51,238 nucleotides of DNA, from contig NZ_LASA01000088.1 of assembly GCF_001562015.1 (NCBI RefSeq), positions 1 through 51,238 on the forward strand, written 5' to 3'. Of this stretch, positions 4,835-45,712 are shown in pieces (within the stretch, counting starts at the first letter, position 1; the number at the start of each line of letters is the position of its first letter). The notes beneath the pieces were generated by a model. The model had not been told where the DNA came from. It worked only from the letters and a program-made list of their open reading frames with translations, and did not search any database. This DNA comes from Endozoicomonas arenosclerae. Its GTDB lineage: Bacteria; Pseudomonadota; Gammaproteobacteria; Pseudomonadales; Endozoicomonadaceae. Both the position numbers and the translations under genes were made by a program.

Positions 4835-4852
4835 ATCGTCCGAAGAGACTAA
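4835..4852. promoter_or_regulatory. Candidate steroid-regulon operator box (KstD operon)
   Basis: ATCGTC-CGAAGA-GACTAA, read on the plus strand. It is one of six boxes of the form ATCGTY-N6-RACKAW in this window. It lies 95 bp upstream of the ATG at 4739, so on the operon strand it reads TTAGTC-N6-GACGAT. Confidence 0.6.
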
Positions 4853-4896
4853 CGGCCTGATAGTACTTAAATGGCATTTAGTAAATATCTGGTCTG

Positions 4897-5760
4897 CTAT
4901 TTGCGATCTTCATATCGAAGTGCGGCAAAAGTCAGAGAGACCAGTCTTTTGACATCATCCTCTGGCAACTTTCGGTAATAGCTCTCAACAAGCAGTTTTA
5001 TAGTTTGAACATCATCATTACTCACCGGACGGGCAAACATTTTCCTGAACATCATGGCCATTCTTTTTATACGATCATCATCGTTCGATTCAAAACTGCT
5101 TGCAGACATCCTGGCCAACACAAGGTGTATCAGTCGAACCTGCTCATGCTCATTGACTTCCTTGCCATAAAGATCCTTCACTAAGGCCTTCAGAATTTCA
5201 AAGTGTGCATCCCCAAGCTCACTGGCAATATATCTACCAGCCATGTTCACCAGGTGCTCAACCCGCTCATCTCTTTTGAGCCTGCTTTCATAGTCTCGGC
5301 AGGCTCTTGAGAATTCCTGAGCCTGTAAGCAGGTTCTTCTGATCTTTTCCTGCTCAGGTAATGCTTCCAGAGCTTCACAAACACTGCTGCTCAATAGCTC
5401 AGCCTCCACCTTATCGAGACGTGGATAGAGGCATTGAGTCAAAAAGAAAATGCGATCTCTGCGGTGCCATAAGTAAGGCGCGTCCAGCACATTGGTCACC
5501 AGATTTTCGACCTTGTCCTGTTCGGTTATCTCCCAATCTTCAAGAGCTTTGGGTGCAGAAGCTGTAAAGGCTGGATTCAAGTGTTGGTAGCCGGTACTGA
5601 TTGTCGAACATGCAGGCACAGCATAAATAACAGTTCCCGAATTAGAAGCCAATGCAGGGCTACGGGTCACAACGCCTGTTTGAGTGCTGGAAACGACGGG
5701 CTGCCAAAGGGGGTTCAAACTTTCCATGTCCTGTTTATCTCTCAGTCGGTCCTCGATCAT
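4897..5760 (-). CDS. Hypothetical protein
   Basis: Unrecognised protein of 287 residues starting at ATG 5760. The first 70 residues are Ser/Thr/Pro-rich and look disordered. From about residue 75 on the chain is predicted helical, charged and leucine-rich (for example VEHLVNMAGRYIASELGD). There is no signal peptide, no membrane segment and no enzyme motif that I can see. A second candidate start at 5727 has AGGA too close to the ATG. The gene is followed by the KstD leader and preceded by a strong terminator, so it is transcribed alone. A disordered N-terminus plus a helical body is seen in secreted effectors, but nothing here proves that. Confidence 0.7.
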   Translation of the reverse strand: MIEDRLRDKQDMESLNPLWQPVVSSTQTGVVTRSPALASNSGTVIYAVPACSTISTGYQHLNPAFTASAPKALEDWEITEQDKVENLVTNVLDAPYLWHRRDRIFFLTQCLYPRLDKVEAELLSSSVCEALEALPEQEKIRRTCLQAQEFSRACRDYESRLKRDERVEHLVNMAGRYIASELGDAHFEILKALVKDLYGKEVNEHEQVRLIHLVLARMSASSFESNDDDRIKRMAMMFRKMFARPVSNDDVQTIKLLVESYYRKLPEDDVKRLVSLTFAALRYEDRK

Positions 5761-5817
5761 TCTTTGACCGAAAAATTAAGAGATAGTTCCAGAGACAAGA
5801 GAAGTAGAGTGCTCAGT

Positions 5818-5855
5818 AAAAAAAGCAGGAAGGCCCAATCATCAAGCCTTCCTGC
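5818..5855 (-). terminator. Rho-independent terminator
   Basis: On the minus strand the stem GCAGGAAGGC / GCCTTCCTGC (10 bp, plus-strand arms 5825-5834 and 5846-5855) is followed by seven T. It lies eight bases past the stop of the gene at 5863, so it ends that transcript. Confidence 0.9.
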
Positions 5856-5862
5856 AGAGGTA

Positions 5863-7239
5863 TTAAAGTTTGGCCTTTGCCTTGCCAATCTGTGACTGCA
5901 GCCAGGCAATTTCACTGAAGGTTTTATGCGTCTCAGCAGCATTCTTCAGCAATACTTGCAAAACCTGAATATGGGTCTCAGTCACTTTCTTGTTATCGGG
6001 CTCCGCTTCCAAAGCCACCTCAACCAGGTGAATCGCTTTGATCGGATCGCCTTCTTTCAAGCGTTTTTGCGCCATCTTGATGACGTTATCCACACCACCA
6101 GCCAGTTCTACAAGATCGGAATAAACTACAGTGGGCCTATAAGGATAGAGTTCACTGGTGTACTTGTATTGGAACCAGGCTCCAGCTTGATTGACAGTCT
6201 CACGAATCGTCCACTCAACACGACCATGCTGCTGGCTCAGCCCTGCGTACTCTTCAGGCAATTGAATGTCACGCATCAACTGGTAAACATCCTTACCCTG
6301 ACTCAAGCCTGTCCAGATTTCATCATGAACATAAGTCGCAGCATCCCTGAGCAGTGTCAGGTTACTCATGATCTCTTTCTTATCAGTAATGGGCTTATCC
6401 TGACCTGGCAGCAGAATTTCAGGCTCCAGGTTGATCATGGTATTCAGGGTTTCAATGTACTCTTCCAGAATACGGTTCCGGTCGGAACGTACTGTTCCCA
6501 GGTTTGGCCACATGGGAATTTCAGGCCCTACTGAACCACCACCGGCGAAGAGTATTTTTTCATCCGGCATCCAGAGACCGGCTGAGTTAATTCCCTCTGC
6601 ACCCGGTAGAGCAATCACTTCAAACTTAACGCCACCCAGCTCGAATTTATAGCCGTCATGGTCTTCAACCATGATGTCCGGAGTAATGGGTCTGTAAGGG
6701 AAAGGATCTTTTTTCCTGGCTTGCTGCTGGGACTTTTTCATCAGCTCCTTTGTCCAGCTGTAAAGCTCTGCATAACGTGGCAACAGGAACTGACTGGCTT
6801 TCTTACGATGCACCATGTATTCAGCCGATGAGCGAGTCATGATGATCTGGGTATCTTCATCCCTGATCATAGGAATCCCCCCTACATCGTCATGCTGACC
6901 CTGAGGCAGGAAGATGTATTTGACCGGTCCTTTCAACACCTCTTTCAAAAGCGCCATCTGCTTAGGCGCCTGGTGAGCAAAGCCGGTATCAATAACAACA
7001 GCCCCTTCAGGAGTGTTCACCAGATACACATTGGCCAGGCCGGAGACATAAAAAACATTTTCGGTTATGGCGACACGTTCAATAGGTACACGAATAAGGT
7101 CACCTACTGGAGTACCACCAGCACGGACATCCTTGGTGTTGAGATTCACATCGGTACCGGTGGAAGCACTGCTGGCAACACTGAGGCTCAAGCCAAACAG
7201 CACAGCAGAGATCTGTTTCAAACTGGAGGGAATGGACAT
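5863..7239 (-). CDS. Exported MBL-fold, alkylsulfatase-like protein with degenerate metal site
   Basis: 458 residues. The N-terminus (MSIPSSLKQI, then a hydrophobic stretch to A-S-S-A-S) is a signal peptide. Residues about 60-290 follow the metallo-beta-lactamase fold. The last 90 residues (E-L-A-G-G-V-D-N-V-I-K-M-A-Q-K onward, with E-A-E-P-D-N-K) match the dimerisation domain of SdsA1-like alkyl sulfatases. The metal signature H-x-H-x-D-H is replaced by Q-G-Q-H-D-D (113-118), the later P-G-H is P-G-A, and the G-D-S loop reads G-G-G-S. Zinc binding is therefore doubtful and catalysis may be lost or altered. The ATG at 7239 follows GGAG. It is divergent from the TetR gene. Confidence 0.75.
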   Translation of the reverse strand: MSIPSSLKQISAVLFGLSLSVASSASTGTDVNLNTKDVRAGGTPVGDLIRVPIERVAITENVFYVSGLANVYLVNTPEGAVVIDTGFAHQAPKQMALLKEVLKGPVKYIFLPQGQHDDVGGIPMIRDEDTQIIMTRSSAEYMVHRKKASQFLLPRYAELYSWTKELMKKSQQQARKKDPFPYRPITPDIMVEDHDGYKFELGGVKFEVIALPGAEGINSAGLWMPDEKILFAGGGSVGPEIPMWPNLGTVRSDRNRILEEYIETLNTMINLEPEILLPGQDKPITDKKEIMSNLTLLRDAATYVHDEIWTGLSQGKDVYQLMRDIQLPEEYAGLSQQHGRVEWTIRETVNQAGAWFQYKYTSELYPYRPTVVYSDLVELAGGVDNVIKMAQKRLKEGDPIKAIHLVEVALEAEPDNKKVTETHIQVLQVLLKNAAETHKTFSEIAWLQSQIGKAKAKL

Positions 7240-7490: not shown

Positions 7491-7512
7491 TAGCCCAATA
7501 ACGAGTTTGACC

Positions 7513-8130
7513 ATGAGCAGTGATCCATTTAGCCAACAGAGCCAGAGCAGGGACACCAAAGCCAGTCGCACGCTTAACCTGATTCTGGATGCCGCTCTGA
7601 GCTGTTACGAACGCAATGGCATCGATAAAACCAATATTGATGAAGTGGCCCGTGAAGCTGGCGTAAGCCGCACCACTTTTTATCGGTATGCCAAGAATCG
7701 TGAAGACTTGTTTAACCAGGTACTCAAACGGGATGCCCAGGAGCGAACCGAAGAAAGAAATGTCGCCCTGCGATATCATGATAATCTGGCCGATGTTTTG
7801 ATTGATGGTGCCCTGTTCAACATGCGTGGCAGAAAGCATCGCACCATGTTTAAACTGCTGTTTTCTGAGGATCAGCCTTCTGCCATTGGAAGAGGCAATC
7901 TATCACCCGCCAACTTCAGACCCATGGCTCGCTCCATGATAGAAAATGCTTTTAATCGTGAACTGGAACGAGGCAATATTCGCGAGGGCATGACACTCGA
8001 TCTGGCTGTAGAGTTTATTTGCCGAATTCTGCTGTCACTCATGGCCCACCCCGACCCGTTTCTGGATGACGAGAGATCTCTCAGACAGTTTTTGGAAGCC
8101 ACCCTGCTTCCTCCCATCATTAAGGACTAA
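7513..8130 (+). CDS. TetR-family transcriptional regulator
   Basis: One-component regulator of about 205 residues. The N-terminal helix-turn-helix (T-N-I-D-E-V-A-R-E-A-G-V-S-R-T-T-F-Y-R-Y) is standard for TetR, and the C-terminal ligand domain is divergent. The ATG at 7513 is preferred to a TTG six bases upstream. It is divergent from the MBL-fold gene and adjacent to steroid genes, so it could sense a steroid or acyl-CoA intermediate. It is a candidate binder of the ATCGTC-N6-GACGAT box, although none of those boxes lies in its own promoter. The stop is two bases from the next gene. Confidence 0.85.
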   Translation: MSSDPFSQQSQSRDTKASRTLNLILDAALSCYERNGIDKTNIDEVAREAGVSRTTFYRYAKNREDLFNQVLKRDAQERTEERNVALRYHDNLADVLIDGALFNMRGRKHRTMFKLLFSEDQPSAIGRGNLSPANFRPMARSMIENAFNRELERGNIREGMTLDLAVEFICRILLSLMAHPDPFLDDERSLRQFLEATLLPPIIKD

Positions 8131-8636: not shown

Positions 8637-8654
8637 ATCGTCCAAAAAGACGAT
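8637..8654. promoter_or_regulatory. Candidate steroid-regulon operator box (luxR-type gene)
   Basis: ATCGTC-CAAAAA-GACGAT, a perfect palindrome apart from the spacer, flanked by T and A that extend it to 7-bp arms. It lies 24 bp after the GNAT stop and 236 bp before the LuxR-type gene. No T-run follows, so it is better explained as a protein site than as a terminator. Confidence 0.6.
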
Positions 8655-8890: not shown

Positions 8891-10021
8891 ATGAGCGAGA
8901 TTATCAGCGTAGAAGAGTTCAGCAGCCTTACAGGCGCATTATATGAGGGGCTACAACAAAAGGTTCCCTGGAAATCCTTCCTGCACAGCTTGCAGGAAAA
9001 AATGGATGCCAATTATGTGACCTTTATCATACGCCCACCTTCCAACGAGTCTGACGGCCTGATCCTGAGCACTGGCCACACCGGTGACGAAGTCGTAGCC
9101 TCTTACAACAAACATTTTTTTGCCATGGATCCTTTTGTTGACCTGCCCAGCAGCAGCGTGGTGACACTGGACGAGTTTATTCCGGAAGGTGAACGAAAAA
9201 ACTCAGACTATGTTCAGCAGTTCCTGGCACCCATGAATGTTCATCACATTCTGGGAACGGACATTAATACCCGCGACGGAGCCAAATACAGCCTCAGAAT
9301 CAGCCGCAGTTCCGAAAGCGATCCATTTACCCAGAAAGATAAAGAAGTCATCAGCCTTTTTGTCCCACACCTGCAACATGCTATTGATATCAACCACCAG
9401 ATAAACCGTGTTGAAACCGAGCGAGACCTTTATGCTGGCGCTGTTGATCAGTTAGCGGTAGGCACAATCATTCTGGACGAAGAAGGCAAGGTCCTTCAGA
9501 CCAACCATGTGGCCCAGGACCTGCTTCAGGAAAATGATGGACTTAAACTGAGTGGCCATTCTCTGCAGGTAGGCACCAGCCGCGACACCCGAAAACTTCG
9601 CGAGCTGATCAAGCAGGCACTTTCTGCACAATTGAACAATACACCATCTGTCGTTGAGGCTTTGAGAATCCAGCGTCCATCCGGCAAGAGCGACCTTGGT
9701 ATTGTTGTACGCTCAGTTCCCACCAATCAGTGGGCTGAGGGCAAGCATTGCCCATCGGTGGTTATTTTTGTCAGTGATCCTGACAGACAATCCCAGGCTC
9801 CTCAGGAAATTGTTAAGGCACTGTTCGACCTGACACCTGCAGAAGCGCAACTCGCCATGCTGCTGGCTAACGGCTTAACACTGGACGAAACATCCGAACA
9901 ACTGTGCATCAGCCGAAACACGGCCAGAGCCCACCTGCGCTCCATCTTTTCCAAAACCGGTGTTACCCGCCAGACCATGCTGGTAAGACTGATTCTCAAG
10001 AGTGTTGCCACCCTGGGTTAA
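8891..10021 (+). CDS. LuxR-family transcriptional regulator with PAS-like sensor region
   Basis: 376 residues. The C-terminal 65 residues (L-T-P-A-E-A-Q-L-A-M-L-L-A-N-G through N-T-A-R-A-H-L-R-S-I-F-S-K-T-G) form a LuxR/NarL helix-turn-helix. A central segment around residues 180-290 (G-T-I-I-L-D-E-E-G-K-V-L-Q-T-N) looks like a PAS domain, and the N-terminal part may be another sensor domain. The size and layout resemble TeiR, the LuxR-type activator of steroid degradation in Comamonas; identity is not proven. It sits just before kshA and is preceded by one of the operator boxes, so it may be part of the regulon it controls. Confidence 0.85.
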   Translation: MSEIISVEEFSSLTGALYEGLQQKVPWKSFLHSLQEKMDANYVTFIIRPPSNESDGLILSTGHTGDEVVASYNKHFFAMDPFVDLPSSSVVTLDEFIPEGERKNSDYVQQFLAPMNVHHILGTDINTRDGAKYSLRISRSSESDPFTQKDKEVISLFVPHLQHAIDINHQINRVETERDLYAGAVDQLAVGTIILDEEGKVLQTNHVAQDLLQENDGLKLSGHSLQVGTSRDTRKLRELIKQALSAQLNNTPSVVEALRIQRPSGKSDLGIVVRSVPTNQWAEGKHCPSVVIFVSDPDRQSQAPQEIVKALFDLTPAEAQLAMLLANGLTLDETSEQLCISRNTARAHLRSIFSKTGVTRQTMLVRLILKSVATLG

Positions 10022-11627: not shown

Positions 11628-11645
11628 ATCGTCCAGTTAGACGAT
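11628..11645. promoter_or_regulatory. Candidate steroid-regulon operator box (kshA)
   Basis: ATCGTC-CAGTTA-GACGAT, a perfect two-arm match to the box at 8637, 117 bp before the kshA start. It is followed by a run of nine C (11648-11656 region) of unknown meaning. Confidence 0.65.
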
Positions 11646-11762
11646 GCCCCCCCCTACCCTAAATCTACAATGCCAGAAAAGCATTATAAAAATTCCATAC
11701 AGAATAGGCGTCTACCGTAGTTCTAACAGACTCCTAGACAGCCCAGCGGGAGAAGAATAACG

Positions 11763-12830
11763 ATGAGCCAGCTGCACAGAATCGAAGCCAAAGAAATTGA
11801 AGACCGTTACGCCAGAGGTTGGCACTGTATTGGCCTGGCGGAAGAATACAAAGACGGGAAAGCACACACTCTGGATATTTTTGGCACCAAACTGGTGGCC
11901 TACCAGGGTGAAGACAAGCAGATCCATATCCTGGATGGCTACTGCCCACATATGGGGGCTGACCTGAGCAAAGGCTGCATCGAAGGTAATTCTATTCGCT
12001 GCCCTTTCCATGACTGGCGCTGGGACTCTGACGGCAAATGCGATGATATTCCTTATGCCAAACGCATTCCTCGCAAAGCCCAGATAAAGTCCTGGCCTAT
12101 TTGCGAGCAGAACAACCTGCTGTTTATCTGGAACGATCCTGAAGGCAACCCACCCATCGAAGAACAGGCCATTCCACGTGTTGAAGCCTGCTTCAGCGAT
12201 GAATGGGCAGACTGGGAAGTGGCCAACCTGACCATCAACACCAACTGCCGTGAGCTGATTGATAACATTGCAGACAAGGCCCACTTCGGTCCGGTTCATG
12301 ACGCTCCCAACAAATTCTTCTCAAACCGTTTTGAAGCTCACGTTGCCGAGCAGACAATGATTGGTAACAGTCCTCGCCTGTCCGGAGAAGCTGATCTGAA
12401 GACAGTAGCCACCTATTACGGTCCGGCTTACCAGATTACAGAAATGACCGGTGAAATGGATGGCATGCCTATTCATTCCATTCTGCTGAACTGCCATGTT
12501 CCCATTGACCGTGACAGCTTCCAGCTGCGTTACGGCGTACTGGTTCAAAAGGTTCCAGGTTTGAGCGATGAACAGAACCGTGAAATTGCTCAGGGCTACA
12601 TTCAGCTGGCTCAGGAAGCATTCTTTGAAGACGTAGCTATCTGGGACACCAAAGTCCGCGTTGACAACCCGATCCTGTGTGATGGTGACGGTCCTGTCTA
12701 TCAGCTGAGAAAGTGGTATGACCAGTTCTACACCGATATTGCTGACGTGAAGGAAGAACTCAAAGAGCGTCAGTACTTTGAATACGTAGAAGAAAGCAAA
12801 AAGGAAGCACTGGAAGCTGAGCCTGCTTGA
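11763..12830 (+). CDS. kshA: 3-ketosteroid 9-alpha-hydroxylase oxygenase KshA
   Basis: Rieske non-haem iron oxygenase that hydroxylates C9 of ring-A-oxidised steroids and, with KstD, opens ring B. 355 residues. The Rieske [2Fe-2S] cluster ligands are C61, H63, C80 and H83 (C-P-H ... C-P-F-H-D-W). The mononuclear iron motif is D-N-I-A-D-K-A-H-F-G-P-V-H around 167-179 (H174, H179). The Y-C-P-H-M-G-A-D-L-S and N-C-R-E-L-I-D-N-I blocks match KshA of actinobacteria. GGGAGAAG precedes the ATG. It needs the reductase KshB, which is not in this window. It is monocistronic, ended by a terminator at 12864. Confidence 0.9.
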   Translation: MSQLHRIEAKEIEDRYARGWHCIGLAEEYKDGKAHTLDIFGTKLVAYQGEDKQIHILDGYCPHMGADLSKGCIEGNSIRCPFHDWRWDSDGKCDDIPYAKRIPRKAQIKSWPICEQNNLLFIWNDPEGNPPIEEQAIPRVEACFSDEWADWEVANLTINTNCRELIDNIADKAHFGPVHDAPNKFFSNRFEAHVAEQTMIGNSPRLSGEADLKTVATYYGPAYQITEMTGEMDGMPIHSILLNCHVPIDRDSFQLRYGVLVQKVPGLSDEQNREIAQGYIQLAQEAFFEDVAIWDTKVRVDNPILCDGDGPVYQLRKWYDQFYTDIADVKEELKERQYFEYVEESKKEALEAEPA

Positions 12831-15009: not shown

Positions 15010-16668
15010 ATGAACATTAAGAAAGCCATTGCTCCGGTGATGATGCTGTCAGCATTGTCTGCATCCATGGCTGTAGTTTCTGAAGAAGCACAGGCCAAAC
15101 AACCCAACGTAGTTGTGATCGTAGCGGACGATCTCGGCTCCTATGACCTGGGTTTTCATGCCAAGAAGTTCCAACAAGCGGAAGACGCACCTACAGTCAT
15201 CAGCACTCCAAACCTGGACAAGCTGGCTGAAGAAGGCGTTCAGATGACTCGTTTCTATACCAGTCCTAAGTGCACCCCGACCCGTGCAGAAATGTTCACC
15301 GGCCGCAACACAATCGATATGGGTATCCAGTACGCTACCATCTACCCATGGGAGCAGACTTCTGTGCCTCTGTCTGAGCACTTCATGCCAGAATCTTTCC
15401 AGGCCGCTGGTTACGACACTGCTATGATCGGTAAGTGGCACCTAGGTCATACTTATGAGCGTCAAGCACCTCTTGGTCGTGGTTTCGATTACTTCTTTGG
15501 TCACCTGAACACCAACGGAGACTACTTCAAGCACACCGTTCAACGCTCTCCGGACCTGCAGCGTAACGGCGTAACTGCTCATGAATACTTCCCGGACAGA
15601 CCAGAATTCAACCCGGAACTGCCTAACTACGGTCCGTTTGTTCTGAGTCATGAAGCGGTTCAGTGGCTGCAAAACGAAAGAACTGACAAGAACAACAACA
15701 AGAAGAACCCATTCTTCCTATATGTGCCTTTCAAGGCACCACACTCCCCCTTGCAGGCACCGGCTGAGCTTATTACAGAAACCGATGAAAACGGCGAACC
15801 ATGGGAAACCCCTGAGCGCGCGACTTATGCAGCAATGGTTACTGCAATGGATACCGCCATTGGTGAGATCGTAGAAGAGCTGGAAGATCAGGGCATTAAA
15901 GATGACACTATCATCATGTTCTTCAGTGACAACGGCGGCATGATCGGCAGTGGCGGTGCCAGCAACTTCCCACTAAAAGGTAAGAAAGGCCTCGCGTATG
16001 ATGGCGGCATTCGTGTCCCAGCTATCATCAACTATCCTAAAAAACTTAAACCTGGCATCAATGATCAGTTCATGTCAGCTATGGACATCTTCCCAACCTT
16101 TGCCACCGCCACTGGCATTGAAGCCCTGAACAAGAAAGAGTTTGTTGGCGAAGACCTGTGGAAAGAGATCAAGAAAGGCAAGACCAAACCTCGTGAAGAG
16201 TCACTGATCTACGGATCAAACGACGTAGTGGGTGATAAGCACCACTTTGCAGTCATTCGTCCGGATGGCATGAAGATGGTACAGACTGTACGCACCACTT
16301 TCGAAGAGCAGGAGATCACCAGCGAACTGTATAACATCATTGATGATCCTTCTGAGTCTGTCGATCTGTGGGGCACACGCCCTCAACTGCAACAGGAAAT
16401 GCAGGAAGAGCTGACCGAATGGCGCAAGCGTCGTCCATGGGCTGGCGGCATCTCCCGCACCGTTCCACAGGCGGGTTGGAGAGCACCTGCTGACTGGGCT
16501 GTTGAACTGAAACTGCGTAGCTCCAATCTGCGTGAAGACGACGCTGGCTACGAAGATAAGATGGACAATATCTACGGTTTCCTGAATGTAGTCGATAACC
16601 CTGAAGCCCTGTTCTTCCAAGACATGAAGTACAAGAAAGCAGGTGTTGGTGTACTGAAGTATGAGTGA
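15010..16668 (+). CDS. Exported type I sulfatase (arylsulfatase-like)
   Basis: 552 residues with a signal peptide (MNIKKAIAPVMMLSALSASM, cleavage near A-Q-A-K). Metal-binding D40-D41 (V-A-D-D-L-G-S) and the sulfatase signature C88-T-P-T-R92 within K-C-T-P-T-R-A-E-M-F-T-G-R are present, so C88 should become formylglycine. G-K-W-H-L-G-H and F-S-D-N-G-G complete the active site. It acts in the periplasm or outside. Beside sterol genes it may desulfate sulfated sterols; sulfated glycans are the alternative. No sulfatase-maturing enzyme is in the window. The gene is monocistronic between a long leader and a strong terminator. Confidence 0.85.
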   Translation: MNIKKAIAPVMMLSALSASMAVVSEEAQAKQPNVVVIVADDLGSYDLGFHAKKFQQAEDAPTVISTPNLDKLAEEGVQMTRFYTSPKCTPTRAEMFTGRNTIDMGIQYATIYPWEQTSVPLSEHFMPESFQAAGYDTAMIGKWHLGHTYERQAPLGRGFDYFFGHLNTNGDYFKHTVQRSPDLQRNGVTAHEYFPDRPEFNPELPNYGPFVLSHEAVQWLQNERTDKNNNKKNPFFLYVPFKAPHSPLQAPAELITETDENGEPWETPERATYAAMVTAMDTAIGEIVEELEDQGIKDDTIIMFFSDNGGMIGSGGASNFPLKGKKGLAYDGGIRVPAIINYPKKLKPGINDQFMSAMDIFPTFATATGIEALNKKEFVGEDLWKEIKKGKTKPREESLIYGSNDVVGDKHHFAVIRPDGMKMVQTVRTTFEEQEITSELYNIIDDPSESVDLWGTRPQLQQEMQEELTEWRKRRPWAGGISRTVPQAGWRAPADWAVELKLRSSNLREDDAGYEDKMDNIYGFLNVVDNPEALFFQDMKYKKAGVGVLKYE

Positions 16669-19120: not shown

Positions 19121-19179
19121 CTACACCACTCTTATTATTGTTTTAGAAGACAATTTGAAGTTATGAGATAACAGTTTGA

Positions 19180-27782: not shown

Positions 27783-27784
27783 AA

Positions 27785-33400: not shown

Positions 33401-35479
33401 GCTCAGGGTCTGGGGGCTTCCTGGATAAATTTTACTTTTACTTCGCGGGATGGAGCCCAGGCTGACCAGCAACTGGTTGACTTGCTGAAGTGTTCCCAAT
33501 TCTATCTGCCCATGCAGTTCCACTGACTTGAGCCAATCAAGATTGACGACTGGAGTAGGGGCGGCTTTGGGTAATGGCAATTGCTGCCAAAGCCCTTCCA
33601 GTTTTTTCCCCCGGCCGACAACACAGGTCAGATTCACTTCTGGCAAAGCAATAGAGTTACCTGCAACAAAAAGGCTGGCCTGGGGAGAAAGCAGAGGCTC
33701 CAGTAACCGTGCCACTGCTGGATTGGTTTCCAGACCGTACAACCGTATCGGCTGGCCTTTTTGCAAAGCCTCCATCAGAGGGGTCAGTTTCTGATTAAAA
33801 GACATCGCCTGCAGACTCGTCATTGAAACAACGTTCAGCAGGGTTTGAGGGGCAGTACGAGCAGTTATTTCGTACTCAAAGACAGTTTTGTCCGATGTCT
33901 CTTCGTCGCTGATCTGCTGAACCAGTTTGACACCAGGCGACAACTGCGGCTTTCTGACAAAGGGCTTCAAGGCCAGCGCCTCTGGCTGCCTGACACGAGG
34001 ATCAATCATTAAAGCCGGGCCAGGTTTAAGCTGCTCAAGACGATTGATCAACCTTACCCACTGTGATTCCAGCAATTTGCCGGTCACCAGTAAGGCTTTA
34101 CCGCCTTTCAGCAACTCCGTCAGGGTATCATTCTCTTTGAACTGACCATCCTGCAGGGAGATATTGGCGACAACATTGTCAAAGTTATCGGCATTCAGAC
34201 TGGCAAAAGCCTGTTGTGGTTCAGCCGGTGTGAGCTTTGACAACTTCTGGTTGATATCATCATGACTGGTATTGCTGAACTGAAACTGGATATCAACAGG
34301 AATAGTGACCCACTGCCCATTGGCCCAGTAGCCTCCGTCCCTGACTGCTTTTGCCAGAGACCTCATAAACTCGGGATCATCCTTGGGCGCATTCACCAGT
34401 TCCAGAAGACTTCCCCTGCGATCCAGCCTGGACAATATGCCATCGCTGAAATGCAGCCGGCCTTCTGAAGAGATCTGAAAACCACCATAGAGCTGACTTT
34501 GCCAGCTGCCCGCCTGACCATAAAAGTCTAACTTCTGGGCACCGGCTGTTGTTGCCGGAGCTGTGACAAATTCATCTTCGTCTTCGCTGAGGCTCAGACT
34601 GTCTATCAGTTCCTGATCTCCCAGAAGCTTTTTTTCCACTTCCGGAATACCCTTTACGCCCAGTGCATCGAGCCGCCGCCAACTGTCAGGCCCAGGATTT
34701 TCTTTGCCCCCGGCCAGCATTTCCTGCTTAACCAGACAGACCAGAGCCACATTATCGCCGAGGCGTCGTCCCTGATACCGGGGAGGACGATCAAACAGTT
34801 CATTGAGGGAAGCAATCTGGCCCGGGGACATATTGGCAAAGTCTAGTACCAGGGTTACGGGCTCCTGACCAAACAAACGGCCTGGTCGCGATTCAATACC
34901 AGCCCCTTCCAGGCAAGAGACTCGTCTCACCAGATCATCATGATCAAAGTCGGAAGGTTTGCCTATATAGGCTGTGTCACCTGGATAACCATTTTTCCGG
35001 TAGTGCTCCATGACGGCCTGGCGTTCTTTCTCATCCTTGACGAAGAAAGTTCCGCCTTCCTGTTTTCTGGGTGCATCGGATCTTGAAAGTAAGGGCGCTG
35101 CGGGATTAACACCGGAAATATTGGCGAAACGAAAAAGATCACCTTTTTTTCTACGCAGATCACCGGCTTCCTTACGACTGAAACAGGGCATCACCTCACC
35201 CGCAATACAGTCCAGAATCTGCCTTTTCAGCTCCTTGTCGGTCTGGCTGTCTGCCAGAGCCCAGACCACAGAGGCCCGGAACTCCTTATCTGCCTTTGCG
35301 CCTTTCAGCCACAGCCAGAAACGGGTCAACAGCGCTCGTCTGGGGACTTCCTTCACCACCAGCCGCCCTTTCATCCTACAGACATGGACCCGCCCTTTAT
35401 CCCGGGCACGAGTCACCACCGACATTTGCTGTCGAATGTCCGAACGGGTGACGCTGGTGCCATGGGGGCCAGTAGTCAT
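30203..35479 (-). CDS. Giant AAA+ ATPase with two dynein/MoxR-type AAA modules
   Basis: 1758 residues. AAA module 1 has Walker A G-E-A-G-T-G-K-T near 948 and Walker B L-I-L-D-E-A-N near 1083, followed by M-T-G-N-P-E-S-Y (sensor 1) and an arginine pair. Module 2 has Walker A G-E-A-G-R-G-K-D near 1323, lacking the usual Ser/Thr, and Walker B V-L-V-I-S-E-L-N near 1376, then A-T-I-N-P-A-S-Y. These are AAA_5 (dynein-related/MoxR) features. The N-terminal 900 residues contain a D-F-A-N-M segment that may be degenerate AAA-like, otherwise unknown. A hydrophobic 12-residue repeat array closes the ORF. It probably reads on into the ORF at 28300. No signal peptide is seen. Role unknown; remodelling of a host or membrane target is possible. 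Confidence 0.8.
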   Translation of the reverse strand: MTTGPHGTSVTRSDIRQQMSVVTRARDKGRVHVCRMKGRLVVKEVPRRALLTRFWLWLKGAKADKEFRASVVWALADSQTDKELKRQILDCIAGEVMPCFSRKEAGDLRRKKGDLFRFANISGVNPAAPLLSRSDAPRKQEGGTFFVKDEKERQAVMEHYRKNGYPGDTAYIGKPSDFDHDDLVRRVSCLEGAGIESRPGRLFGQEPVTLVLDFANMSPGQIASLNELFDRPPRYQGRRLGDNVALVCLVKQEMLAGGKENPGPDSWRRLDALGVKGIPEVEKKLLGDQELIDSLSLSEDEDEFVTAPATTAGAQKLDFYGQAGSWQSQLYGGFQISSEGRLHFSDGILSRLDRRGSLLELVNAPKDDPEFMRSLAKAVRDGGYWANGQWVTIPVDIQFQFSNTSHDDINQKLSKLTPAEPQQAFASLNADNFDNVVANISLQDGQFKENDTLTELLKGGKALLVTGKLLESQWVRLINRLEQLKPGPALMIDPRVRQPEALALKPFVRKPQLSPGVKLVQQISDEETSDKTVFEYEITARTAPQTLLNVVSMTSLQAMSFNQKLTPLMEALQKGQPIRLYGLETNPAVARLLEPLLSPQASLFVAGNSIALPEVNLTCVVGRGKKLEGLWQQLPLPKAAPTPVVNLDWLKSVELHGQIELGTLQQVNQLLVSLGSIPRSKSKIYPGSPQTLSQTLLKKLLAQVEMERHSDGAEEVGPYHWQKALNDVVAKEYRGDPLAYGFVKSQIVRCFPDPVMPGRVNVTAVSQWLKDQPKINREVIQQHYWELARHFSPPSCTVPESMGQVTADGVEQLVHLLVQSVPEVEKVSLAGQLGCTVQIIEPFLAVNDEQYRRTYNALMVAGHERRLKKEPVHEQALLFSRQLDQLGKPLDRLEVLSVLSHYLSPELLEHDFSDLAEAFCSGQTSKLRQMRRVVRLVQKLAANPLLMIKGEAGTGKTYTADAAARLYAPGKEPIVISLSPEHTQEELFGRQVMKANEVRLKKEQLVFSPSPDATWQTLCQLTKVPLNSGEVKITFDQETCDSLKKVMEEKEFHELLEAFQDSQSVFQPGPILEWARMKDPPVLILDEANLVKQGVLQPLAGLKKKPPELFIFGERIELTDRHRVIMTGNPESYDGRVMDRRIREEAVTLYYRKIPSAVLAESVFAPGLPEAWSPELKKHATTVGLKIYQAYHKVLPDHTFGPRDLKDILARIEGYVAGVDDLSQAQVNAILWQAISDTLAGEVKPDQARNAMALDHWFHAHYVCDSTPVDARKVAFEGFYLALIRSNPRDDFDYDVPSVRQLAMKVWLDLEKTGGKHALVIEGEAGRGKDVLLDRLLPAWIESHGKARSINRINASPENWDEIKRLARKAMEEGSVLVISELNTLPSRYLEGLFNEVLNGEAVEGFKLLATINPASYSGREELSSAMESRCTLARIGQFTEAELKGLMHRRSGFTRSFSGFTRSFSDWLVSKHCHLNRELESYGASVKLPLVKLLDAAKALKSVPGFQREEAFEAEYGLARMALSYQKAHHAKVQEEKGSAQRQERERKLSRIINQDSSDPVCITLTDPDQAGIFSFANGTLLLPDQEDMPALVASAMKLLHPDEQAEVAVEKIQSRLDDIEKEEKLEAEAMTDPVDETDEGQAGSGGGMLSSMYKFFSVKRLVSIVSILPLGKVLKVLLVLPLGKMASLLGYIPFEKALWLLGKLPLDKLVGALKYLPYERMIDMASRLPLDKLISAASHLPLDRMAGWLGGVSAYR
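30228..30239 (-). repeat. Tetranucleotide tract (GGCT)3 at a frame break
   Basis: On the coding (minus) strand ATG-GCT-GGC-TGG-CTG-GGT contains three GGCT copies. With two copies the frame would read L-P-L-D-R-M-A-G-W-V-E-Y-L-P, keeping the 12-residue period and joining the two ORFs. With three copies the first ORF stops at 30203. Confidence 0.75.
31081..31122 (-). repeat. Perfect 21-bp tandem duplication inside the AAA+ gene
   Basis: CACTGAACGACCGGGTAAAGC occurs twice in tandem (31081-31101, 31102-31122). It encodes the repeated peptide S-G-F-T-R-S-F twice in frame, near residue 1460, after the second AAA module. The perfect identity points to a recent event. Confidence 0.9.
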
Positions 35480-40458: not shown

Positions 40459-41661
40459 TTAAACGACTTCAAACAATCCCGCAGCACCCATACCACCACC
40501 AATGCACATGGTGACGACTACATACTTCACACCGCGACGCTTACCTTCCAGCAGCGCGTGACCCACCATACGGGCACCGGACATACCGAATGGGTGACCG
40601 ATGGAAATAGCACCACCATTGACGTTCAGGTTTTCATTGGGAATACCCAGCTTGTCCTGGCAGTACAGAACCTGGGAAGCAAACGCTTCGTTCAGCTCCC
40701 AAAGACCAATGTCGTCCATTTTCAAACCATTACGCTTCAGCAGCTTGGGAATGGCAAACACAGGACCAATACCCATTTCATCGGCACTGCACCCGGATAC
40801 CGCCAGACCACGGTAGATACCCAGAGGATCAAGCCCTTTCTGCTCGGCCAGAGTACTGCTCATCAGAACCGAAGCAGATGCACCGTCAGACAGCTGGGAA
40901 GCATTACCCGCAGTGATGAAACGACCTTCTTTCACCCACTGACCGTCTTTGAAGACTGGCTGCAGACCACTCAGGCTTTCAAGTGTTGCGCTGGGACGAT
41001 TACACTCATCAGCACCCAGAGTCACCTGCTCGAAGGTTGTCTCTTTGGTTTCCCTGTTGAACACCGCTTTCGTGGTGGTCATGGGAACAATTTCCTTGGC
41101 GAACAGACCGTCACGCTGAGCCTGGGCAGTGCGCATCTGACTCTGGTAACTGTATTCATCCTGAGCTTCACGGGAGATGCCATAGCGGTCAGCTACAATC
41201 TCACCGGTTTCAATCATAGGAATATAAGCCGTAGCGTCCTGCTCCAGCACCAGCTTTGACTGGTTACGGTAAACATTCTTGTGCTTGTTCTGAACCAGAG
41301 AAATAGACTCCAGACCACCGGCAACGGCCACATCAATCTCATCGCACATGATGCTTTTGGCTGCAGTGGCAATGGTCATGAGACCGGAAGAGCACTGACG
41401 CTCCATGGCCATACCGGAAACCGAATCTGGCAAACCACCGGCTACGGCACATAAACGACCAAGATTATACGATTGAGTACCCTGCTGGGCCGCAGCTCCC
41501 ATCAGTACATCGTCCACTTCGCCAGGCTCAATGCCCGCTCTTTCTACTGCTTCACGAACTACATGGCCACCCATAGCAGGTGCTTCGGTATCATTGAAAG
41601 CTCCACGAAAAGCTTTACCAATGGCGGTACGTGCGGTGGATACTATAACGGCTTCTTTCAT
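40459..41661 (-). CDS. Thiolase (acetyl-CoA acyltransferase), FadA5/FadA6-like
   Basis: Last step of beta-oxidation: thiolytic cleavage of a 3-oxoacyl-CoA. 400 residues. Nucleophile C90 (R-Q-C-S-S-G), the N-E-A-F-A-S motif, [11 protein letters not shown] (His) and the final C-I-G-G-G-M-G (Cys) are all present. AAGGAG precedes the ATG. It ends a three-gene operon with a MaoC hydratase and an SDR, which is a full set for a steroid side-chain or C/D-ring cycle. Whether it equals FadA5 or FadA6 needs phylogeny. Confidence 0.9.
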
Positions 41662-41713
41662 ATCAGGCTCCTTGATCGCTTTTCGTTATTCTGGTTGGGT
41701 TATTCTGGCGTCT

Positions 41714-42187
41714 TTATTCTGGATAGTAGCGGGAGATGGTATCCACAACACAGGCGGGTCGGTCTTCACCTTCTACCTCGACTGTGACACGAACAGTGGA
41801 CTGGATACCGCCTTTCACTTCTTCCACCTGCACCAACTCTCCAACCCCGCGTACACGAGAACCGACTTTTACAGTATTGGGGAAGCGCACTTTATCGCAG
41901 CCATAGTTAACACCCATTTTTATCCCCTGGACATCAACAATGTCAGGCAGGAATAGATTGACCAGAGACAAGGTCAGGTAACCGTGAGCAATGCAGGCAC
42001 CAAAAGGTCCGTCTTTGGCTTTAACCGGATCAACATGAATCCACTGATGGTCGCCGGTAGCTTCTGCAAACAGATTGATCCGTTCCTGATCGATTTTCAG
42101 CCAGTCGCTGGTACCCAGTACTTCACCGACCTTGTCTTTCATGTCCAGGGGGGATTTGAATACGGTTGTCGCTTGTTTTTGGCTCAT
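41714..42187 (-). CDS. MaoC-like enoyl-CoA hydratase
   Basis: 157 residues, single hotdog domain. The catalytic pair D46 and H51 lies in A-T-G-D-H-Q-W-I-H-V-D-P, followed by G-A-C-I-A-H-G-Y-L-T-L-S-L, the (R)-hydratase signature. It hydrates 2-enoyl-CoA esters before the SDR and thiolase steps. It starts six bases after the SDR stop and ends 52 bp before the thiolase start. Confidence 0.9.
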   Translation of the reverse strand: MSQKQATTVFKSPLDMKDKVGEVLGTSDWLKIDQERINLFAEATGDHQWIHVDPVKAKDGPFGACIAHGYLTLSLVNLFLPDIVDVQGIKMGVNYGCDKVRFPNTVKVGSRVRGVGELVQVEEVKGGIQSTVRVTVEVEGEDRPACVVDTISRYYPE

Positions 42188-42192
42188 GACTG

Positions 42193-42975
42193 TTACGCCC
42201 TCTGACTGCTGGCTGAAATCACTTCACCGGCCAGATAAGAACTGTAATCACTGGCCAGGAACATCATAATGTTGGCGATTTCCCAGACTTCTGCGGCACG
42301 GCCGAAAGCTTCTCTGGAAGCCAGCTGATCCAACAGATCCTGAGGTGCAGACTTTTTAAGGAAGTCATGCAGTGCAATACTGGGGCTGACGGCATTGATG
42401 CGAATACCGTGTTCTGCCGCTTCAACCGCAGAACAACGAGTCAGCGCCATAACTCCGGCTTTGGCAGCAGCGTAGTGAGCCTGTTCTTTCTGGGCTCTCC
42501 AGCCAAGAACAGAAGCGTTGTTAACAATGGCTCCGGCCTTGCGCTCCATCATTTTTGGCAGCATGGCACGGGTCATACGCATGGTTCCGGTCAGAGTAAC
42601 GTCCAGAACACGGTTCCACTCTTTGTCTTCCATTTCCACCAGCAGCTTGGAACCACCCAGACCTGCGTTATTGATCAGGACATCCACACCGCCGAGCTGT
42701 TCTTCAGCCACACTCACCAGTGTCTGTACATCGTCTTCTACAGTAACATTGCAAACCTGGGTATAAACTTCTTCCAGCCCGGTTTCGTCCTTGATCTTTT
42801 CAGCCGCTTCTTTCAGACGACCATCGTGTATATCACTGATCATCAAAGCGCGGCAACCTTCTTCAGCCGCCTTGATAGCCGCGGCATAACCAATACCTGC
42901 ACCGGCGGCTGCAGTGATCAATACTGACTTGCCCGCCAGCAGATTGTGTCCTTTGACGTACTCAGGAATCAGCAT
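42193..42975 (-). CDS. SDR oxidoreductase, IpdF-like
   Basis: About 260 residues from ATG 42975, with AAAGGAG upstream; a longer version from 43056 is rejected. The cofactor loop is A-A-A-G-A-G-I-G, then I-N-N-A-G, N-N-A-S and H-Y-A-A-A-K. The opening V-K-G-H-N-L-L-A-G-K-S-V-L-I-T and final S-D-Y-S-S-Y-L-A-G-E-V-I-S resemble SDRs of the actinobacterial HIP (ring C/D) pathway such as IpdF, from memory. It is first in the operon with MaoC and thiolase, so it may oxidise a 3-hydroxyacyl-CoA. Confidence 0.85.
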   Translation of the reverse strand: MLIPEYVKGHNLLAGKSVLITAAAGAGIGYAAAIKAAEEGCRALMISDIHDGRLKEAAEKIKDETGLEEVYTQVCNVTVEDDVQTLVSVAEEQLGGVDVLINNAGLGGSKLLVEMEDKEWNRVLDVTLTGTMRMTRAMLPKMMERKAGAIVNNASVLGWRAQKEQAHYAAAKAGVMALTRCSAVEAAEHGIRINAVSPSIALHDFLKKSAPQDLLDQLASREAFGRAAEVWEIANIMMFLASDYSSYLAGEVISASSQRA

Positions 42976-43140
42976 CTGTGATCCACTCCTTTCATTATTC
43001 TTTTTTGGAAGGTAGCAGCGCTTTTTATCAGTCTCGTTTCCATACCATGCATGCAAACAAGACCTTTCAACAATTCCGCTCTACCTACTGTTTATTCTTA
43101 AACTGTTAACTGACCACTAGTACTGCCAAGCGTTAATGCT

Positions 43141-43226
43141 CATACATACTCCGTTCATCCTGAGCTTGTCGAAGGATTCTGGTAATGCACTTCAACAGGC
43201 TCAGTGCGAACGGTATGGGGTTTAGC
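43141..43226. repeat. REP/MITE-like palindromic repeat, copy 4
   Basis: CATACATACTCCGTTCATCC opens the element and GAACGGTATGGGG closes it. It is the reverse complement of copy 1's right half joined to copy 3's left half. It sits between two same-strand steroid operons, 22 bp from the stop of the acyl-CoA dehydrogenase gene. Confidence 0.8.
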
Positions 43227-43247
43227 GCTTAGCTGCACTAACACTCT

Positions 43248-44438
43248 CTACCGGCCTTTGGGTTCCTTGGGCATTCCCAGAGCACGCTCGGCAATGATGT
43301 TACGCTGAATTTCGTTAGTGCCACCGTAAATGGTGTCTGAGCGGGTAAACAGGTACATGGACTGGAGACGGTCCAGTTCATAAGGGCCTTCAGGCAGAAC
43401 TTCAGAGTCAGCACCCCGAACATCCATAGCCAGTTTGCCCAGATCGGAATGCCAGGTAGCCCAGTAAAGCTTGTAGATCATGGCTTCTTTCTGAAGGCTG
43501 CCACCCTGTGGACCGGAAAGCATTCTCAAAGAGTTGTAACGCATGATCCGCAGACCCATCCAGGCATCAGCAATGCGCTGTCGTATGGCCGGATCTTCAG
43601 CAGCGCCATTCTCTTTGGAAATGTTGATGACTTCATCCAGCTCATTCTGGAAGTGCATCTGCTGACCCAGGGTGGAAACACCGCGCTCAAAGCCCAGCAG
43701 CGCCATAGCGATCTTCCAGCCATCTCCTGGTTTGCCAACAATATTGGCAGCGTCGGTCACAGCATCGTCAAAGAAGACTTCGTTAAACTCGGAAGTACCC
43801 GTCAGCTGTTCAATAGGACGCACTTCGATATTGGGCTGGTCCATAGACACCAGCAGGAAAGAGAGCCCTTTGTGGCCCTGACTGCCCGGTTCGGTTCTGG
43901 CGATCACAAAACACCAGTCCGATTCATGAGCCAGCGAGGTCCAGACTTTCTGGCCATTGATGCGCCATTTGCCACTGGCTTCATCCAGAACCGCTTTGGT
44001 TTTTACGTTGGCCAGGTCAGAACCAGCGCTGGGCTCAGAGTAGCCCTGACACCAGTACTCAGTGCCATCAACAATACCGGGCAGGAATCTCTTTTTCTGT
44101 TCCTCGGTACCAAAGGCAATAATGGTAGGTCCTGCCAGACCTTCACCAATGTGCCCCATATGACCCGGACCACCCACACGGGCGTATTCTTCATGGAAGA
44201 TCACCTGCTGGTTGATGGACAGCCCGCGGCCACCGTATTCTTCTGGCCAGCCGGGACAGGTCCATCCTGCCTTGGCCATGTGCTGCTCCCAAACTTTTCT
44301 TTCTTCCGGGAACATATGTTCATCGCCAGGTCCACCCCGGTGGCGGAGCTGCTCGAATTCACCGGTCAGATTTTCTTTCAGCCAGGAGGCTATCTCTTCG
44401 CGAAACTGTTCGTCTTCAGAACTGAAGCTGATTTTCAT
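43248..44438 (-). CDS. Acyl-CoA dehydrogenase, steroid-type subunit 1
   Basis: 396 residues. FAD acyl-CoA dehydrogenase with Y-S-E-P-S-A-G-S-D-L-A, the K-V-W-T-S-L-A strand and F-T-R-S-D-T-I-Y-G-G-T-N-E-I-Q-R-N-I-I at the C-terminus. The N-terminal S-S-E-D-E-Q-F-R-E-E and the G-G-x-G-L-S motif are like FadE proteins of steroid catabolism, which act as heteromers of two different subunits. GGAGAGG precedes the ATG, 20 bp after the partner gene. Preferred substrate unknown. Confidence 0.88.
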   Translation of the reverse strand: MKISFSSEDEQFREEIASWLKENLTGEFEQLRHRGGPGDEHMFPEERKVWEQHMAKAGWTCPGWPEEYGGRGLSINQQVIFHEEYARVGGPGHMGHIGEGLAGPTIIAFGTEEQKKRFLPGIVDGTEYWCQGYSEPSAGSDLANVKTKAVLDEASGKWRINGQKVWTSLAHESDWCFVIARTEPGSQGHKGLSFLLVSMDQPNIEVRPIEQLTGTSEFNEVFFDDAVTDAANIVGKPGDGWKIAMALLGFERGVSTLGQQMHFQNELDEVINISKENGAAEDPAIRQRIADAWMGLRIMRYNSLRMLSGPQGGSLQKEAMIYKLYWATWHSDLGKLAMDVRGADSEVLPEGPYELDRLQSMYLFTRSDTIYGGTNEIQRNIIAERALGMPKEPKGR

Positions 44439-44458
44439 TGTTTATACCTCTCCAGAAC

Positions 44459-45610
44459 TTAGAGGATTGCCTGAGCAATCTTTTCGCGGTGATAGGCGCC
44501 ATTGCCCAGGAATGTTTCGGTAGACTTTGCCCGCTTGAAGTAAAGATGGGGGTCGTATTCCCAGGTAAAGCCAACACCACCATGAAGCTGGATGGATTCT
44601 GCGGCGCAGTGGAAAAAGGCGTCGGAGCAATAGGCTTTGGCCAAAGCAGAGGCAACGGGCAGTTCGTCTCCAACGACACCACCAAACACAGCTTCCTGAG
44701 CAACACAGGCTGCGTAATAGATTGCGGATCGAGAGCACTCAACTTGCAGCATCATATCCGCTGCACGATGTTTGATGGCCTGAAAGCTGGCAATGGTTCG
44801 GCCAAACTGAACGCGCTCCTGAGTGTATTCAACGGTCAGGTCCAGAGCCTGTCTTGCACCGCCGCACTGTTCAGCAGACACGGCAACGGCGGCCAACTGC
44901 AGGATTTTCTCAAGATCTGACCAGCCTTCACCGGCTTTGCCCAGCAAAGCGTCAGCACTGATAAACACATTATCGAGTGAAACTTCGGCCTGCTTGCGGG
45001 TCTGATCCATGGTCGGTGTCCATTTACGACTGACACCTTCGGAGTCCGCAGGCAGGGCAAACAGACTGATCCCTTGCTGACCCTGAGTATTTGGATTTCG
45101 GGCGGCAACAATTAAGAGACCGGAGGTATGACCATCGGGAACATATTTATAGGTACCCGAGAGCACGAAGCCTTCACCTTCTTCTGTAGCGATCACACCC
45201 ACAGAGTCAGCATCCCAACGATTACTGGAGGTATAAGCCAGAGTGGCAGTCAGACTGCCTTCTGCAATCTGTGGTAACCATTGTTGTTTCTGCTCTTCAT
45301 TACCGGCTACCAGCAAGGCATTAACACCCAGCCCAACGGTAGAGAAGAAAGGTGAGCAAAGCAGCCTGCGCCCCATCTCTTCCAGCAGTATGGTCAGCTC
45401 AACATAACCAAGCCCAAGACCACCATACTCTTCCGGAATGGTTAAAGCCTGCCAGTACATCTCTGAACAGATACGTTGCCACAATGCAGAATCAAAACCG
45501 GATTCAGTCACCATGGCGGACCGAACGGCTTCGGAAGTGGAAACGTCCTGAAGAAAACTTTCGGCTGAATCCCGGATCATTTCCTGTTCATCGGTGAAAG
45601 CGAACTCCAT
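44459..45610 (-). CDS. Acyl-CoA dehydrogenase, steroid-type subunit 2
   Basis: About 383 residues from ATG 45610 (MEFAFTDEQ, the common family start); an ATG at 45631 would add seven residues. It keeps the three-domain fold, R-V-Q-F-G-R-T-I-A-S-F-Q-A-I-K-H and G-G-V-G-F-T-W-E-Y-D-P-H-L-Y-F-K-R-A. The mid-domain F-S-x-x-x-A-G-S motif is degraded (T-S-S-N-R-W), as often in one subunit of the alpha2beta2 FadE enzymes. It is first in a two-gene operon with an operator box 84 bp upstream. Confidence 0.88.
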   Translation of the reverse strand: MEFAFTDEQEMIRDSAESFLQDVSTSEAVRSAMVTESGFDSALWQRICSEMYWQALTIPEEYGGLGLGYVELTILLEEMGRRLLCSPFFSTVGLGVNALLVAGNEEQKQQWLPQIAEGSLTATLAYTSSNRWDADSVGVIATEEGEGFVLSGTYKYVPDGHTSGLLIVAARNPNTQGQQGISLFALPADSEGVSRKWTPTMDQTRKQAEVSLDNVFISADALLGKAGEGWSDLEKILQLAAVAVSAEQCGGARQALDLTVEYTQERVQFGRTIASFQAIKHRAADMMLQVECSRSAIYYAACVAQEAVFGGVVGDELPVASALAKAYCSDAFFHCAAESIQLHGGVGFTWEYDPHLYFKRAKSTETFLGNGAYHREKIAQAIL

Positions 45611-45694
45611 CCCCAGCGACCCTCTTATCATTCTTGTTCAACGACTACACGCCGCGCATTGGGGCATACTGTGAATCGAATGGCGTTTTGGTTA

Positions 45695-45712
45695 ATCGTT
45701 CGAATGGACGAT
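45695..45712. promoter_or_regulatory. Candidate steroid-regulon operator box (acyl-CoA dehydrogenase operon)
   Basis: ATCGTT-CGAATG-GACGAT, with one T in place of C in the left arm. It lies in the divergent region between the acyl-CoA dehydrogenase operon and ycjX, 84 bp from the former and 136 bp from the latter. Confidence 0.55.

Follow-up and report, generated by a model that had tools for sequence, protein, structure and literature searches.

The 51,238-nucleotide stretch of Endozoicomonas arenosclerae DNA analysed here (contig NZ_LASA01000088.1, called the window below) carries six copies of an 18-bp palindrome in front of steroid-type operons and of a gene for a LuxR-type regulator, and this box is very probably the switch by which the regulator turns the steroid pathway on. 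The assignment follows from two lines of evidence, namely the fixed place of the box before steroid operons and its occurrence beside relatives of the LuxR-type gene in other bacteria. More specifically, the sequence comparisons make it highly likely that the LuxR-type protein encoded at 8891-10021 (+ strand) binds the palindrome directly, and that it is a TesR/TeiR-like activator of the boxed operons. The initial annotation of the window had proposed a shared operator marking a steroid regulon; the observation was confirmed and its interpretation is supported, and the proposal is right in substance, with a sharper box, with the LuxR-type protein as the likely binder and with a TetR-family protein, the second candidate, dropped.

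Coordinates and letters of all six boxes were verified, and each box is intergenic as had been annotated, lying outside the 47 selected open reading frames (ORFs) that make up 86.7% of the window. On the plus strand, ATCGTCCAAAAAGACGAT (8637-8654) precedes the luxR-type gene, ATCGTCCAGTTAGACGAT (11628-11645) precedes kshA with a -10-like TACAAT at about 11666-11671, and ATCGTCCACTTGAACTAA (26908-26925) precedes a gene pair for a short-chain dehydrogenase/reductase (SDR) and an SRPBCC protein, SDR4-SRPBCC, with a -10-like TAACAT at about 26947-26952. On the minus strand, ATCGTCCGAAGAGACTAA (4835-4852) lies 5' of the SDR2-KstD-SDR1 operon with a -10-like AAAAAT at about 4813-4808, ATCGTCTGTGTGGACTAA (23020-23037) 5' of an hsaD-hsaE-hsaG-hsaF-like operon with AAAAAT at about 22998-22993, and ATCGTTCGAATGGACGAT (45695-45712) 5' of an acyl-CoA dehydrogenase operon, where the -10 hexamer is weak. 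The gaps from the boxes at 4835, 8637, 11628, 23020, 26908 and 45695 to the listed start codons measure 95, 236, 117, 60, 80 and 63 bases, respectively; the upstream position had been annotated correctly, whereas the annotated range of 80-236 bp has to be widened to 60-236 bp. For hsaD the listed start codon is TTG; deeper within the gene there is an ATG with an AGGAGG in front of it. The six sites yield the consensus ATCGTYY-N4-RRACKAW, which is sharper than the originally described motif with its free N6 spacer: all six carry C or T at position 7, A or G at position 8 and A or G at position 12. This refined pattern matched six times in the window, not at all in the reversed window, and 0.02 times on average (at most once) in 300 first-order Markov sequences. 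The original motif with up to three mismatches gave 26 raw matches in the window compared to 13.4 expected by chance, i.e. about half of them; one such site, at 19137 with three mismatches, does not fit the refined pattern.

Since the consensus was built from the six window sites, the decisive test lies outside the window. Positions 7 and 12 of the consensus were fixed when off-window sites, among them the three additional places given below, were already known from looser patterns, and position 8 later still, so that the following genome, family and Pseudomonas counts were not blind. In the source assembly (6.45 Mb in 327 contigs, with the window as contig C246), the exact refined pattern was found at nine places, the six of the window plus C109:6816, C242:2140 and C267:5805, while the reversed pattern gave three matches (none on one strand, three on the other). 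All nine places lie 5' of steroid-type operons. The site on C109 is located 124 bp 5' of a gene for a RutF/HpaC-type flavin reductase, which is followed by genes for an FAD (flavin adenine dinucleotide) oxidase, an SDR and a KshB-like reductase; the site on C242 precedes genes for an enoyl-CoA hydratase, a FabK-like protein, a second hydratase and acyl-CoA dehydrogenase-like proteins; and the site on C267 precedes genes for a nitroreductase, a nitronate-monooxygenase-like protein and two acyl-CoA dehydrogenases. Judged by protein families and gene order, these operons would represent gene types of ring oxygenation and C/D-ring degradation. A further copy with one mismatch (GACTAC arm) was found on C54 5' of genes for an HsaC-like dioxygenase (E 1e-98, below the curated cut-off) and ipdAB-like proteins; we take the two genes after the HsaC-like gene to be ipdA and ipdB, and the ipdA-like protein had no NCBIfam match at E 1e-25. 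The suggestion that a genome scan might find the box before other steroid genes was thus borne out, and the boxed operons of the source genome are spread over five contigs.

It could be argued that the boxes reflect chance or base composition, because relaxed forms of the motif are not enriched genome-wide: the refined pattern with one mismatch gave 42/44 matches compared to 58/60 for the reversed control, and the free-N6 motif with up to two mismatches gave 231 per strand compared to 273. Hence, the exact pattern is the only usable marker, and the genome-wide specificity expected by the initial annotation holds for the refined pattern and not for its loose form. For the exact sites as a set the chance explanation is already refuted, and its probability overall is negligible, given the counts of the exact pattern in the window, the genome, the family and the LuxR-centred loci described below as well as the preferred distance to the -10 region. 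Among the three exact ATCGTC-N6-GACGAT palindromes of the genome, the one at C282:10887 carries A at position 7 and lies between secA and a peptidase-type gene instead of before steroid genes; it is treated as a chance occurrence.

The position of the box within the promoters points to activation. In a set of 49 hand-chosen and oriented Endozoicomonadaceae promoters, a -10-like hexamer (score at least 3) begins at an offset of exactly 21 nt downstream of the box in 51% of cases and at any other offset in at most 10%; when both flanks of 54 boxes were taken without selection, offset 21 occurred in 31 of 104 and the next most frequent offset in 9. A similar picture emerged for the LuxR-centred loci L111-L185, where 37 unique kshA promoters have a -10-like hexamer (score at least 2) at 20 nt in 89% of cases and hsaD promoters have it at 21 nt in three of four. 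The kstD promoters of this set show peaks at 21 nt (34%) and 49 nt (34%), consistent with a pair of boxes some 50 bp from each other, the 31 SDR3-side promoters show no peak at 20-21 nt, and the two luxR promoters are too few to judge; over all 108 promoters, 31% have the hexamer at 20 nt and 16% at 21 nt. The spacing of 20-21 nt was seen at kshA, hsaD, hsaC, kstD, SDR4 and other promoters, though not at luxR, and at the divergent SDR4/hsaD box of two relatives (G009 and G022) the hexamer occurs at 21 nt on either side. Setting the -10 hexamer at -12 to -7 places the box at about -51 to -34 with its centre at -42.5 (or -41.5), and no TTGACA was seen at the place of the -35 element, the edge of the box, in the printed promoters. 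A box centred near -42.5 together with a -10 hexamer and without a good -35 element corresponds to the geometry of a class II activator at a sigma-70 promoter, with the transcription starts being predicted. The opposite sign of regulation, in which the LuxR-type protein would bind the box as a repressor that is relieved by steroid in a KstR-like manner, appears improbable. It could find support in the relatives G009 (E. elysicola) and G017 (E. cretensis), both with a second luxR copy whose box ends 24 bp short of the projected start codon; against it stand the activator geometry and the description of TesR/TeiR of Comamonas as a positive regulator in the accessible text of PMC6678751 and PMC6895838.

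The distribution of the box among relatives bears on the identity of its binder. The LuxR-type protein has matches in nine of the 37 Endozoicomonadaceae genomes, source included. Box places were counted in 15 of these 37 genomes with the pattern narrowed by position 8, leaving out the source genome, the carrier G008 on account of a matching repeat and 20 others including G011; the reversed control matched 0 to 5 times per genome. The LuxR carriers G021, G022, G023, G024, G009, G017 and G018 have 4, 5, 11, 9, 8, 8 and 6 distinct places, and the eight non-carriers have 0, 1, 0, 3, 0, 0, 0 and 0. Consistent with the conservation expected for an operator, the boxes of related strains recur 5' of the corresponding genes. 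In G008, counts of the loose motif are inflated by some twenty copies of ATCGTTTATATTGACGAA, which probably belong to a dispersed repeat. The TetR-family protein encoded at 7507-8130 (+ strand) had been named beside the LuxR-type protein as candidate binder, and its gene lies within the cluster, TetR proteins bind palindromes, and KstR and KstR2 belong to this family. At E 1e-12, however, it has matches in only three of the 37 family genomes, the source, G009 (51%) and G024 (28%), so that a close match exists in one of 36 other genomes, whereas boxes recur in G017 and G021-G024 and in genomes without any TetR match. The TetR protein was therefore rejected as box binder, and we regard this role as very improbable; the pattern fits a LuxR-type gene that tracks the box and a TetR gene that does not.

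The same association was seen in 298 Pseudomonas genomes of the genus around the P. jessenii genome G053, the genome of locus L135. The broader pattern ATCGTCYNNNNRGACKAW was discarded as a marker in this genus, because it matched 201 of the 298 genomes, including about 149 of 245 LuxR-negative ones; several of the listed matches represent one recurring sequence, ATCGTCCTGTGGGACGAT. It was replaced by the narrower ATCGTCYRNNNRGACTAA, in which position 8 is restricted and the GACTAA arm is required. The LuxR homologue (E 1e-60) occurs in 53 genomes, ATCGTCYRNNNRGACTAA in 50 and both in 49, i.e. the box is present in 49 of 53 LuxR-positive compared to 1 of 245 LuxR-negative genomes (Fisher p ~3e-50, kinship ignored; the reversed control matched once in each of eight genomes). 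LuxR-positive genomes without ATCGTCYRNNNRGACTAA are G305 and G048, G040 and G052, of which the last three match the broader pattern.

Beyond these groups, a scan of named genome contigs combined with an alignment of the LuxR-type protein retained 80 loci of 306 relatives. These LuxR-centred loci come from Endozoicomonas, many Pseudomonas, Stutzerimonas, 12 Cupriavidus, and metagenome-assembled genomes (MAGs) of Oceanospirillaceae, Spongiibacteraceae and, in two cases, Binataceae. They contain 121 exact boxes compared to none in the reversed sequence, with one or more in 61 of the 80 loci. One box lies inside a luxR gene. For 97 of the 121, the projected start of a reference-protein homologue is no more than 500 bp away, and for 24 it is not; the first number falls to 92 when the generic SDR and metallo-beta-lactamase references are excluded. 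The near-start boxes belong, among others, to kshA (49), SDR3-like genes (37), kstD (32) and luxR (7), with some counted on both sides. In the Binataceae MAGs (L171 and L173) the 18 letters 5' of kshA are the same as those of ATCGTCCAAAAAGACGAT before the window luxR gene. One of the loci with LuxR homologue and kshA box, L169, is P. resinovorans DSM 21078, and a P. resinovorans strain scored positive on testosterone in a table of the accessible part of PMC4810484. Among 50 whole genomes reached via the loci, 45 match ATCGTCYNNNNRGACKAW and three have one reversed-control match each, whereby the context of most matches was not inspected. The 12 Cupriavidus loci have no exact box; with up to one mismatch they contain 39 boxes compared to 1 in the control, which are not independent because the same places recur between species, and a search for exact 6+6 palindromes gave no usable shared operator candidate there. 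At E 1e-40 the LuxR homologue was found in 4 of 399 genomes of the order of Cupriavidus, and six regions of three Burkholderiales genomes contain 1, 1, 2, 1, 3 and 0 relaxed sites with a control of 0. The best reading of these sequence data is that the box would be common to Endozoicomonas, Pseudomonas and the two Binataceae MAGs and looser in Cupriavidus. Plasmid pVa1 of Vibrio alfacsensis (L206) has three relaxed sites compared to none in the control, 5' of an acyl-CoA dehydrogenase gene, of electron-transfer-flavoprotein genes and of an SDR operon. As a separate observation, a LuxR homologue (37%) on pVa1 lies amid genes for acyl-CoA dehydrogenase, thiolase, ferredoxin reductase and electron-transfer flavoproteins, possibly a plasmid-borne steroid pathway.

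Several findings weigh against the LuxR-type protein as direct activator at the box. The co-occurrence statistics take no account of phylogeny, up to six candidates were scored per Pseudomonas genome, so that some LuxR proteins may have been missed, and the consensus letters were set with some off-window sites already known, although the six window sites on their own yield the same letters. The LuxR-positive Pseudomonas genome G305 has no box under either pattern, no relaxed boxes were found near the LuxR homologues of Burkholderia, of a Novosphingobium plasmid and of the Spongiibacteraceae MAG, and a Sphingobium plasmid has one relaxed box near its LuxR homologue compared to one in the control. 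The window luxR promoter has no clear -10 hexamer at 21 nt, which together with the 24-bp distance at the second luxR genes means that autoregulation could be negative. Finally, boxes occur without a detected LuxR protein in G287, the only such Pseudomonas genome, and in G011, where they lie 5' of kshA, an acyl-CoA dehydrogenase operon and hsaC and no LuxR match was found at E 1e-20. In G011 (loci L066-L068) kshA, kstD and the ipd (CoA-transferase) genes are truncated or fragmented, with repeated transposase-like ORFs in the vicinity, hence its steroid pathway is apparently in decay. These two genomes would also suit the view that a different regulator, inherited together with the pathway, binds the box, with the LuxR-type protein acting indirectly or elsewhere, since co-occurrence, a sequence association, ties box, pathway and LuxR gene alike. 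We consider this explanation unlikely. The box lies directly 5' of luxR while the boxed operons are located on five contigs, in four relatives (G009, G017, G021 and G022) the luxR gene and a kstD-type gene diverge from a region with a single box, and the helix-turn-helix (HTH) of the LuxR-type protein is conserved in step with the box. In strain Hp36 (L107) and in Endozoicomonas sp. OPT23 (L106), the luxR ortholog is preceded by the same letters as ATCGTCCAAAAAGACGAT, and in the window and relatives the luxR-type gene has kstD- and kshA-like genes as neighbours.

The LuxR-type protein comprises 376 residues. The Pfam family GerE (PF00196) matched with 28.3 bits, above the cut-off of 23.5, so that a C-terminal LuxR-type HTH is present, and a PAS match reached 20.1 bits, under the Pfam cut-off of 22.6. 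No autoinducer-binding domain was matched in Pfam at E 0.001, no kinase family was among the Pfam matches, and the match to NCBIfam PnpS (19.1 bits with a cut-off of 400) covers residues 148-249, outside any catalytic part. The AlphaFold2 model built from 12 sequences (mean predicted local distance difference test score 75, predicted template modelling score 0.50) may be read as a GAF-like N-terminal part, a PAS-like part at about 181-295 and the HTH. Among the best 50 Foldseek matches, GAF/PAS multidomain chains and SdiA/RhlR were found with query TM-scores of 0.19-0.34, from which the domain types alone were used. HTH residues 342-357 are invariant in 12 family members and nearly invariant in Cupriavidus. 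The sequence comparisons establish the sites and their consensus, their specificity in the genome, their recurrence, the co-occurrence with this LuxR gene and the favoured spacing to a -10-like hexamer; we infer for this protein the binding to the box, the activation, the ligand and the autoregulation: a steroid or a catabolite would be sensed by the GAF/PAS-like part, a LuxR dimer would bind the two ATCGTCY arms, one of which may weaken to TTAGTC, and the dimer centred near -42.5 would touch the RNA polymerase and thereby replace a good -35 box. The boxed steroid operons would then be activated upon ligand binding, and one box may serve two divergent genes.

Regulators of this class are known, whereas the box and its spread appear to be undescribed in the literature searched. 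In actinobacteria a palindromic operator of KstR/KstR2 also marks steroid operons, with AACnnGTT as core of the KstR-type operator. In contrast to these TetR repressors, the regulator here is a LuxR-type activator by geometry with one box for both pathway halves, the core of the box reads GTCY-N4-RGAC, and the window TetR protein is not conserved with the operator. The similarity to quorum-sensing LuxR systems, in which the lux box lies near -42.5, comprises the LuxR-type HTH and a palindrome near this position; in contrast, the protein has a GAF/PAS-like sensory part without a match to an autoinducer-binding domain, and its 18-bp box is different. KstR homologues are absent in bile-acid-degrading Proteobacteria, and deletion of a TeiR-like gene delayed the growth of P. 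stutzeri Chol1 on cholate, cited as unpublished, according to the accessible part of PMC8399759. The accessible texts on C. testosteroni report TesR/TeiR as a positive LuxR-type regulator (PMC6678751, PMC6895838) and TesR as necessary for tesB-tesR, tesA1-tesG and tesA2-ORF18 (PMC6895838, PMC13101464). The protein described here shares with TesR/TeiR the LuxR-type HTH and the gene location among steroid genes, and clusters similar to the A/B-ring and C/D-ring gene clusters of TesR in these texts are boxed here. TeiR is reported to be a kinase with polar location, whereas the protein described here gave no kinase match in Pfam. In two Burkholderiales genomes (G468 and G620) a LuxR homologue (38-41%) is encoded directly 3' of SDR-MaoC-thiolase genes, an arrangement that seems to resemble the end of the tesB-tesR cluster. 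No operator of the TesR/TeiR class was found in the accessible literature that was searched, and subscription papers may hold one. The operator of EdcR in Caenibius tardaugens, TnnCnnTACnAnTnGTAnnGnnA, is likewise a palindrome of a steroid (estrogen) cluster, but it overlaps the -10 region and serves a repressor, as far as the accessible text of PMC8700777 goes.

The boxed genes of the window were named by family matches and context. The KstD-like 3-ketosteroid delta-1-dehydrogenase (2192-3979, - strand) matched NCBIfam PRK12844 with E 9.8e-179 and 595 bits, below the curated cut-off of 789; the KshA-like Rieske oxygenase (11763-12830, + strand) gave Rieske-type NCBIfam matches that were all under their cut-offs, and its name was kept from the initial annotation on the basis of context; the HsaD-like hydrolase, encoded by the first gene of the meta-cleavage operon (22096-22959, - strand), matched NCBIfam HsaD with E 2.4e-52, below the cut-off; and the SDR4 and SRPBCC genes (27006-28270, + strand) were assigned by profile matches. 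Two acyl-CoA dehydrogenase genes followed by SDR, MaoC and thiolase genes occupy 40459-45631 on the minus strand with a single box at the head. The SDR-MaoC-thiolase genes (43056-40459) had been described as lacking the box, and no separate box precedes them. Since they lie about 190 bases downstream of the two boxed acyl-CoA dehydrogenase genes and are read in the same direction, they may be part of the boxed transcript. Near kshA the window carries an alkyl-sulfatase-type gene (5863-7239) and a sulfatase gene (15010-16668). A box at L073:15072 in E. elysicola and at L200:5902 in E. cretensis lies 74 bp 5' of a gene whose E. elysicola copy encodes metallo-beta-lactamase and alkyl-sulfatase domains; together, these genes hint at the use of steroid or alkyl sulfates. 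Furthermore, the window encodes at 30203-35479 a protein of 1758 residues that contains an AAA-type ATPase region, matches STAND/NACHT-type families weakly and has no evident tie to the steroid genes.

The box, with its consensus and promoter position and its joint spread with the LuxR homologue, provides a handle for genome mining of steroid genes. We find it reasonably probable that the LuxR activator and its ATCGTCY-N4-RGACGAT box form a regulatory module that has spread together with the aerobic steroid pathway among Gammaproteobacteria and Betaproteobacteria and as far as Binataceae. This box would then be the direct operator of the whole TesR/TeiR class, would drive both pathway halves from -42.5, sometimes with two divergent promoters per box, and could serve as bait for unknown steroid genes. 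According to the accessible text of a 2025 review of the family (PMC12491435), steroid-utilisation genes have not been detected in Endozoicomonadaceae genomes, yet E. montiporae and E. acroporae use steroids. Contrary to this review, the boxed operons described here suggest that some Endozoicomonadaceae do possess steroid-utilisation genes.

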